A DNA stretch of 64,000 bases. It comes from an uncultured Pseudomonadota bacterium. Its GTDB lineage: Bacteria > Myxococcota_A > UBA796 > GCA-2862545. This document shows, piece by piece, positions 21,672 to 26,396 of this stretch. Made by a program: the position numbers and the translations under genes. Location: positions 1-64,000 of the forward strand of contig CAJXTB010000005.1 of the NCBI GenBank assembly GCA_913061235.1. Reading direction: 5' to 3'. Position 1 is the stretch's first letter. Each line of letters starts with the position of its first letter. The notes below the pieces were generated by a model. The model saw nothing but the letters and a program-made list of their open reading frames with translations, did not search any database and was not told where the DNA came from.

Positions 21672-22016
21672 ATGCGTCATGATTGGATTGGTATGCCACA
21701 GGTATACGTAGCGGCATTGTTGTTCTGCGGCGGCATCACCACAGCAACAACAGCAAGTGCGCAGTCTTTGGACCTGGGAATGAACTGCGTCAATGACAGT
21801 GGCCAGTCCATGATGACAGGTCCAACAACCATGCTGTTCACCCGCACGTACGCGATGACCTGCGCGTTTCAGTACCAGAAGGACACGGGCGGGACCCTGC
21901 CCAATGTAAAGCTTCAGATCTCGTCAGATCTGGTGACGCTGACCAATGTGGCGCCGGACCTACCGGACGGCGTTGAAGGCTTAGCGAACAACCAAGAGCA
22001 GATCTACGGCTTGTAG
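21672..22016 (+). CDS. N-terminal piece of split MopE-type surface protein
   Basis: A 114-residue reading frame with a signal peptide (hydrophobic VYVAALLFCGGITTATTASAQS) followed by the start of a beta-rich domain (NVKLQISSDLVTLTNVAPDL). It ends at a TAG (22014-22016), and the same frame continues without another stop for 1459 codons as the next entry. The downstream part has a C-terminal membrane anchor but no signal sequence of its own, so this piece most likely belongs to the same gene. A nonsense mutation, a base-call error or readthrough are possible explanations. Confidence 0.7.
   Translation: MRHDWIGMPQVYVAALLFCGGITTATTASAQSLDLGMNCVNDSGQSMMTGPTTMLFTRTYAMTCAFQYQKDTGGTLPNVKLQISSDLVTLTNVAPDLPDGVEGLANNQEQIYGL
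22014..22016 (+). other. In-frame amber codon interrupting the surface-protein gene
   Basis: The codon order is TAC GGC TTG TAG GGT CGG GTG, in the same frame as the open reading on both sides. One base change (for example TAG to CAG or TGG) would restore a single frame of 1574 codons from 21672 to 26396. Confidence 0.85.
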
Positions 22017-22022
22017 GGTCGG

Positions 22023-25000: not shown

Positions 25001-26396
25001 AGCCCTACCGAGCTCAGACGAGCTGTGCGACGGCATCGACAACGACTGCGACGGCGACGTTGACGACGGATTTGACCTTGGCCAAGTCTGCTCAGACGGC
25101 GTTGGCGAGTGCATCAGCAATGGCCAGACCGTCTGCTCCACAGATGGCCTCGATATTGCGTGCGATGCCTTGATTATCCCCGGATCTGATGAGCTGTGCG
25201 ACGGCCTCGACAACGACTGTGACGGAACCTCGGATGACGGCTTTGGCCTCGGCGACACGTGCACCGTTGGCATTGGCGCGTGCCAGACCGATGGCGAGCT
25301 CGTCTGCTTGGCTGATGGCTCGGGCAGCGAGTGTGATGGCGTTGAGGGCGCTCCAAGCACCGAGACTTGCGACGGCACAGATGGCGACTGTGACGGCGTC
25401 GTAGACAGCGTCATCGTGCCAGACGTCGGACCGGTCAATGTCTGCGCAGACACCGACGAAGACGGCCTGACCGACCTTGAAGAGTACACCGAGACCAACA
25501 CCGACCCCTTCGACGACGACACCGATGACGACGGCCTCATCGACTTCACCGAGGTCAACGGCCCCACAGACCCGCTCAACCCCGACACCGATGACGACGG
25601 CGTTCAGGACGGCACCGAGCTCGGCCTGACTGAGCCCGAAGGCGCCGACACGAACGAAGATGTCTTCATGGTCGATGCGGACCCGACATCCCAGACCGAC
25701 CCGTTGGACGACGACTCCGATGATGACGGCCTTGTCGATGGCTCGGAAGACGCTGACAGCAACGGTGCTGTGGACACCGGTGAGACCGATCCCGACAACG
25801 CCGACTCGGACGACGACCTGCTACAAGACGGCACCGAGTCCGGCTTGACCGAGCCCGAAGGCGACGACACCAACACAGACGGCCTATCCGACCTTGATGA
25901 GACCACCATCCACGGCACTGACCCGGACGACGACGACACCGATAACGACACCGACGGCGTGCAAGACGGCACGGAGTCAGGCCTCACGGCTGCCGAAGGC
26001 GACGACACGGACGACGGACTCTTTGTGGCCGACGAAGACGAGACCACAACAACCGATCCACTCAACGACGACAGCGACGGCGACCGCCTGCTCGACGGCG
26101 ACGAAGACGCCAACGGCGACGGTGCAGTGGACGACGATGAGACCGACCCCAACGACATGGACACGGACGACGGAAGCGTTGCCGACGGCGACGAAGTGGA
26201 CCGTGGCTCCGACCCGCTAGACGCGAGCGATGATGTTCCCGTCGAGCCGGACACGGGCGCGCCGGACACGGGCTTGGACGCCGTTGTGGGCGGCGGCTGC
26301 AACTGTGACAGCGGCAAGACCGGCGCAGGATGGCTCTTGGCCCTTCCGCTACTGCTCGGGCTCCGTCGGCGTCGGTCGGCTGCTGTGCGTTGCTGA
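22023..26396 (+). CDS. Large MopE-repeat/Ca-binding surface protein (downstream part of split gene)
   Basis: A 1457-residue frame from a GTG two codons after the amber stop. Residues 1 to about 930 are beta-rich and of unknown family. About 940-1130 hold four 'CD..DNDCDG..D.GF' units, the putative metal-binding motif of MopE-type proteins (PF11617-like), with intervening Cys pairs. About 1140-1410 are Asp-rich thrombospondin type 3-like repeats (DTDDDGL.D..E). The C-terminus has GGGCNCDSGKTGAGW, a hydrophobic helix and RRRR, like the MYXO-CTERM sorting signal. With the upstream fragment it would be a secreted, sorted surface protein; alone it lacks a signal peptide. Confidence 0.8.
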   Translation: MSNLPGNPRATIDVDTQVITMPIGTLPNLTTAEASTSFAFKSAFPHADTEIRVTAVIDGVPQDPSNDLVYTLTYQASQERRETRPIPTVQTDRRFVGTAMMDQASNFPSRPHTNARMTVYLPYYNGVSVVADGGFNPALHIPVIDGDDLRSQLILRNLSDVTMLNYEMPSGTPVHSDGTISWPAAGEPNAHRLIIFDPATNTLTGNIGVVYPSEALASNGFAGFNNWRLRWDADFNDAAIPFLPSGTQFPTQYCLQSNETGPVAAGNGAWCSSRTSTIGDESVLVDLIHTGCPAASSNTLYRCNNEASPYPPGSDGLTAVRLRNNTSRSGDAVVQLQVPGRQGSGRTADLTQILVGPGFRTPNLPFTALEQASDGARLLVTTEPADYTGSPDNDDITSRTFRAADDPSWVECPIISPRGPRECDVSALATAGIDIADVTEIRFEVDQMRPQFISTDDQAGSTRQSEWNVHLRWTVRDDVAPSIDGAPYSGTSTASTAWGSASAFSITHNDGALTTATDTDTAEVTRQSFTVPCGVGPGGSVAALGLGSCANNQNSQSSRAVLSVVDFNIGLENSGSLGNVFGPFEMCAPIPTGIRLENSVTADRNRPVVVVGARMIGGSTEAIPQSAYSSTYTPAPPGSTYAGDLCINVPTLNGITPNGALEAGFSLQALVKGLIVPGVSPIAMFVGDNVRRGTVTSQGQSASGEVIEVSQQLNRGLYRVSGRRQLSVTESVDPSERIGLETEVCYDYEIDSHAFTETGFALDPNGSTLPTENTVSYQWIPNTNNAQPAAMTGTNTANSEFSEASSEDALAVWVHTANDPNRGNSTTLQLNGFQQCAVNAPCDATALLLLGLTPQQVRWVAFEFDTINVTDAEPRGVAPFDGETRVNNPYQSRVCLDEDGTSASETNLATILEIQSDLLSITSEPVVVVIDTDCPNGAFAAPESCDSLDNDCDGSVDEGFITGEECEAGLGACLTTGFTVCSPDGSRAICDAVALPSSDELCDGIDNDCDGDVDDGFDLGQVCSDGVGECISNGQTVCSTDGLDIACDALIIPGSDELCDGLDNDCDGTSDDGFGLGDTCTVGIGACQTDGELVCLADGSGSECDGVEGAPSTETCDGTDGDCDGVVDSVIVPDVGPVNVCADTDEDGLTDLEEYTETNTDPFDDDTDDDGLIDFTEVNGPTDPLNPDTDDDGVQDGTELGLTEPEGADTNEDVFMVDADPTSQTDPLDDDSDDDGLVDGSEDADSNGAVDTGETDPDNADSDDDLLQDGTESGLTEPEGDDTNTDGLSDLDETTIHGTDPDDDDTDNDTDGVQDGTESGLTAAEGDDTDDGLFVADEDETTTTDPLNDDSDGDRLLDGDEDANGDGAVDDDETDPNDMDTDDGSVADGDEVDRGSDPLDASDDVPVEPDTGAPDTGLDAVVGGGCNCDSGKTGAGWLLALPLLLGLRRRRSAAVRC
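24850..25430 (+). repeat. Four MopE-type repeats
   Basis: Four units coding for C-D-x2-D-N/G-D-C-D-G-x-x-D followed by a Cys-containing linker, spaced about 165-180 bases. The fourth is divergent (CDGTDGDCDGVVD). They are the best family marker in the large surface protein. Confidence 0.75.
25440..26215 (+). repeat. Asp-rich Ca-binding-type coding repeats
   Basis: Repeated GAC/GAT-rich units encode DTDDDGL, DDDSDDDGLVDG and similar segments in the pattern of thrombospondin type 3 repeats. A phrase 'QDGTE.GLTEPEG.DTN' recurs three to four times between them. Base composition here is strongly skewed by Asp codons. Confidence 0.75.

Follow-up and report, generated by a model that had tools for sequence, protein, structure and literature searches.

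A single in-frame TAG codon interrupts a large exported surface-protein gene of a Myxococcota-type genome in the 64,000-nucleotide stretch of DNA analysed here (the window), and a recent nonsense mutation that inactivated this gene of ~1575 amino acids is probably the cause. We infer that the change is present in the organism's DNA and is not an assembly artefact, that it happened recently, and that the gene has lost its function. A first-pass annotation of the window had claimed that one TAG splits the frame at 21672-26396 and that no other internal stop is present. Translation of this interval (+ strand) bears this out, in that its 1575 codons, which begin with an ATG at 21672, include one internal stop (TAG, 22014-22016) in addition to the terminal stop at 26394-26396. 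The parts of the gene are as follows.

21672-22013, + strand: 5' part of the gene (114 codons), with the ATG, the signal peptide and the beginning of the N-terminal beta domain
21672-21761, + strand: putative Sec signal peptide, residues 1-30 (ending in TTASA before QSLD), assigned from sequence, hydropathy and alignment with the N-termini of relatives
22014-22016, + strand: in-frame TAG stop; four relatives have V, F, A or M in the aligned column
22017-26396, + strand: 3' remainder of the gene (1459 codons plus the terminal stop), lacking an export signal of its own
24855-25440, + strand: short Cys/Asp repeats matching Cu-binding_MopE (PF11617) in four stretches; boundaries approximate
25440-26270, + strand: Asp-rich repeat region, with a partial gliding_CglD match far below the cut-off; boundaries approximate
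26289-26393, + strand: MYXO-CTERM-like tail (17.1 bits, cut-off 20), with a Cys motif, a hydrophobic helix and an Arg cluster

The frame stays open for 1459 codons 3' of the TAG before the terminal stop is reached. This open stretch is far beyond chance, because the probability of finding 1457 stop-free random codons at the local base composition is ~10^-19. Codon statistics are coding-like both 5' and 3' of the TAG, and the GC content at third positions is 0.69 upstream and 0.72 just downstream. No second mark of decay, either a further stop or an apparent frameshift, was seen in the 4.7 kb of the gene, where ~41 random substitutions would be expected to occur before a further stop arose in frame. 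The lack of a second mark fits a recent event, but it fits equally well a base-call error or a readthrough gene that is being maintained.

Homologues were sought in a set of 58 genomes (57 relatives and the genome of the window itself) and in a class-wide set of 71 genomes. The same large protein was found in three genomes of the same family among the 58 searched, and the class-wide search added none. The search for intact homologues that had been proposed as a check recovered three full-length, uninterrupted copies from two of these genomes, one of 1794 amino acids (L027 in genome G020) and two of 1801 and 1787 amino acids (L028 and L029 in genome G011). The fourth relative (L030, contig C953 of genome G007) carries a frameshift, located at a different place from the window TAG, that could reflect either a true lesion or a fault in the assembly. 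A single-sequence scan of public contigs returned no relatives, whereas an alignment-based scan did recover the same relatives, with apparently the same copies being present in the public MAGs M1803 and GY13CH_bin.7.

All four relatives align unbroken through the TAG column, which is a variable position that encodes V, F, A or M, and none of the four has a stop there. Over the downstream part the three full-length relatives are 37-40% identical to the window protein. In the alignment across the TAG, identity to them is 33-35% on the upstream side and 36-37% on the downstream side, and because these values are similar, nothing at the TAG suggests a domain boundary or a gene junction. In a low-confidence model of one relative, the column corresponds to residue 101, at the start of a strand (residues 101-106) of the first beta domain, such that the TAG is predicted to fall inside a strand of this domain. 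Conservation with the window does not extend to the genes on either side, and we therefore treat these relatives as homologues rather than as proven orthologues. The search turned up no other genome of the species or genus with the TAG allele. Within the window's own genome (7.18 Mb), neither the upstream nor the downstream part occurs a second time, the generic repeat region aside. The two pieces are one ancestral gene, as the first-pass annotation had argued: all four relatives read on past the site, and an export signal is lacking from the downstream half. Neither a family of homologues consistently divided into two genes nor a separate export signal on the downstream part was seen.

The distribution of export signals had also been correctly described, with a signal peptide in the upstream piece only. 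A GGGGGA sequence resembling a Shine-Dalgarno element lies 5' of the ATG at 21672, and the 114 amino acids upstream of the TAG begin with a signal-peptide-like segment with a best 12-residue hydropathy of 2.27, compared with a best value of 1.18, and no comparable hydrophobic segment, in the first 150 residues downstream of the TAG. The C-terminal anchor noted earlier is present in the sense that its Cys, helix and Arg elements can be recognised in the translation, but its match to TIGR03901 (MYXO-CTERM) scores 17.1 bits and so falls below the cut-off of 20. In Myxococcus xanthus (M. xanthus), MYXO-CTERM proteins are exported, are thought to be lipidated on the Cys, and are cut by the CPBP protease MrtX before reaching the surface; all 35 of them bear signal peptides (PMC11980579). 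The protein examined here resembles that system (PMC11980579) in the N-terminal signal peptide, the three-part C-terminal tail, and the presence in its genome of one MrtX-like CPBP protease (121 bits). It differs in that both the tail and the protease (family cut-off 180) score below threshold, and in that the TAG parts the signal peptide from the tail in the window copy, whereas the two are on the same polypeptide in the intact relatives. The full tail-bearing protein is probably lipid-anchored. Judged by the M. xanthus proteins, the downstream piece, which has no signal peptide, could not reach the surface alone.

The label 'MopE-type' given to the protein in the first-pass annotation holds for the short repeats, where four stretches pass the Pfam gathering score of PF11617 (51.7 bits, cut-off 27). 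As a name for the rest it does not hold, since the repeats make up a small part of the whole and the ~940 amino acids between the TAG and the repeats match no Pfam family, a region that sets this protein apart from Cu-binding_MopE proteins and that the homologue searches recovered from just three further genomes of the class. Assignment as the gliding lipoprotein CglD (NF033765) was rejected, the match being partial and reaching 105.4 bits against a cut-off of 400. The fold model of the N-terminal region is of low confidence (pLDDT 56), and a fold search with it yielded generic Ig-like adhesin and integrin matches (TM ~0.2-0.3) from which no identity was drawn.

TAG acts as a normal stop in this genome. 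RF1 is intact (484 bits, cut-off 423), and TAG is the commonest stop among 597 long frames, ending 297 of them (TGA, 229; TAA, 71). The genome gives 45 tRNA matches, and the typed genes include a tRNA-Sec, which reads UGA. No CUA anticodon is present among the typed tRNAs, and one of the 45 matches (C7:44127) was not typed by ARAGORN. Genome-wide recoding of TAG was accordingly rejected. RNA following the TAG at 22014 is not unusually structured, with stabilities that do not exceed those of shuffled sequences (z of -0.96 and -0.82 for two lengths), and a stimulatory RNA structure was rejected as well. Given RF1, the tRNA set, the stop usage and the RNA stability, there is no sign of reassignment or of stimulated readthrough, although weak near-cognate readthrough of a TAG can never be excluded from sequence alone.

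Approximately 2.0 Mb (28% of the genome) was scanned for other stops with coding-like, in-frame sequence on both sides. Most candidates from codon statistics were neighbouring genes that share a frame by chance, or antisense shadows; starts were judged by eye, and adjacent genes with their own starts were set aside. The clear cases besides the window gene are three exported-protein genes (two with TAG, one with TAA) and one gene with TGA. The first is an exported lipoprotein with MopE repeats (C5:160696-163923, - strand, L072) that has a single in-frame TAG at 162723. Its closest paralogue in the same genome (C10:215185-218343), 50% identical overall, is open and has a sense codon at this column, and among the own-genome matches listed only the C5 locus carries a stop. 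The idea of a family-wide amber habit in MopE-type genes was rejected on these grounds. Another is a glycine-rich exported protein (C12:128366-129853, - strand, L130) with one in-frame TAG at 128824. The family of this protein has ~64 matches in the genome, and two others contain an internal stop (one TAG, one TAA). The TAA case is a small repeat protein (C1:604447-605220, + strand) that is interrupted at 604759, apparently has a further frame break downstream, and looks like a decayed gene. The TGA at 126353 lies in a small lipoprotein-like gene without a Pfam match (C12:126015-126749, - strand, L130), where it precedes SYC to give a U-x-x-C pattern. Because the genome has both a tRNA-Sec and a SelB above its cut-off, this codon probably specifies selenocysteine, and the gene is a candidate selenoprotein.

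With the window gene counted and the TGA left out, the lesions comprise three TAG to one TAA, which fits the TAG share of 51-55% predicted among nonsense changes from codon usage alone. The three TAG sites have no obvious common context, and the RNA 3' of them is not unusually structured (z of -0.82, +0.72 and +1.38). The presence of three comparable interruptions in ~2.0 Mb indicates that sporadic nonsense lesions occur in this genome, and the window TAG is thus one of a few such lesions. All of the interrupted genes encode exported proteins, and none is evident among housekeeping genes. This bias is as expected if dispensable genes tolerate loss, though a sample of four is too small to test it.

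Under the nonsense mutation that we favour, the intact gene would have encoded a protein that opens with a Sec signal peptide and a long N-terminal region rich in beta structure, continues with MopE-like metal-binding repeats and an Asp-rich stretch, and ends in a MYXO-CTERM-like tail. Ribosomes would now initiate at 21672 and RF1 would terminate translation at the UAG, yielding a secreted fragment of ~84 residues that lacks an anchor and contains only part of the first domain. The remainder would either not be made or, with a restart at the GTG at 22023, would be a cytoplasmic product without a signal peptide. In-frame stops in otherwise intact bacterial genes are known, and some have been proposed to be read through (PMC7918605). 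The window gene resembles those cases, TAG among them, in having one in-frame stop in an open, conserved frame, but their authors relied on stops common to orthologues (PMC7918605), whereas every relative found here lacks the stop.

Of the four causes offered in the first-pass annotation, a nonsense mutation gives the best fit, while readthrough and phase variation fared poorly. The main rival is a substitution error in the assembly, or an allele of a minority strain, in which case the gene would be intact in most cells; we consider this a real but rather unlikely possibility. It would explain why the TAG is the sole lesion in 4.7 kb, and it gains from the state of the data, as the genome is split over 72 contigs with 2% contamination, those relatives known by a public name are themselves metagenome-assembled, and the frameshift in one relative's copy of the gene is possibly an assembly fault. 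Against it, the genome looks clean in other respects, in that the 2.0-Mb census gave few interruptions, and these are confined to exported, probably dispensable proteins, whereas random errors would strike exported and housekeeping genes alike; the numbers are too small to test this difference. Programmed or tolerated readthrough of the UAG, by which a small share of ribosomes would decode the codon as an amino acid and complete the surface protein while the stop limits its dose, appears improbable. The long, undecayed downstream frame is compatible with it, as are the two further exported-protein genes with a single in-frame TAG (C5:162723 and C12:128824) and the report of conserved bacterial in-frame stops, TAG included, that are under purifying selection (PMC7918605). 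However, every sign of readthrough that was sought is absent: the stop is not conserved in any relative, RF1 is present with no CUA-anticodon tRNA found, the three TAG sites have no obvious context in common and are not followed by unusually structured RNA, and the C5 gene has an open paralogue with a sense codon. A broader version, in which a few large surface-protein genes of the lineage keep amber codons and low-rate readthrough by near-cognate tRNAs serves as dose or bet-hedging control, is more improbable still.

Two further explanations have very little to recommend them. The locus might comprise two genes, one for a small secreted protein and another for a large protein reinitiated at the GTG at 22023, which is two codons past the stop and has TAGGG just upstream. 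This arrangement is highly unlikely given that the relatives are single genes aligned unbroken across the site, that the stop cuts a predicted domain, and that the downstream product would lack the signal peptide carried by all 35 MYXO-CTERM proteins of M. xanthus (PMC11980579). The TAG might instead mark the off-state of a phase-variable or otherwise switchable gene, which we regard as comparably far-fetched. Surface proteins are frequent targets of phase variation, and a weak inverted repeat (17 nucleotides, 82%) flanks the site at 21851-21867 and 22066-22082. However, the site has no slippage tract or tandem repeat, the genome holds no second copy or silent cassette, and the segment between the inverted repeats is already in the orientation that aligns with the relatives, which argues against an invertible switch.

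The interruption matters mainly for annotation, in that automatic callers would report a small secreted protein and a large 'cytoplasmic' anchored protein, both of which are misleading. It also shows that a few of the exported-protein genes in this genome are interrupted. The site would bear on the decoding of stop codons in bacteria only if peptides that span it exist.

Two other genes in the window were noted. The neighbouring gene at 16774-21474 (+ strand) encodes an exported protein of 1566 amino acids with hexapeptide (left-handed beta-helix) repeats followed by a CARDB domain and then by approximately five copies of a 351-nucleotide tandem repeat at 19460-21156. The gene at 30227-32089 (+ strand) encodes a single protein that joins a protein kinase domain to a periplasmic substrate-binding domain of the phosphonate type, seemingly an unusual combination.
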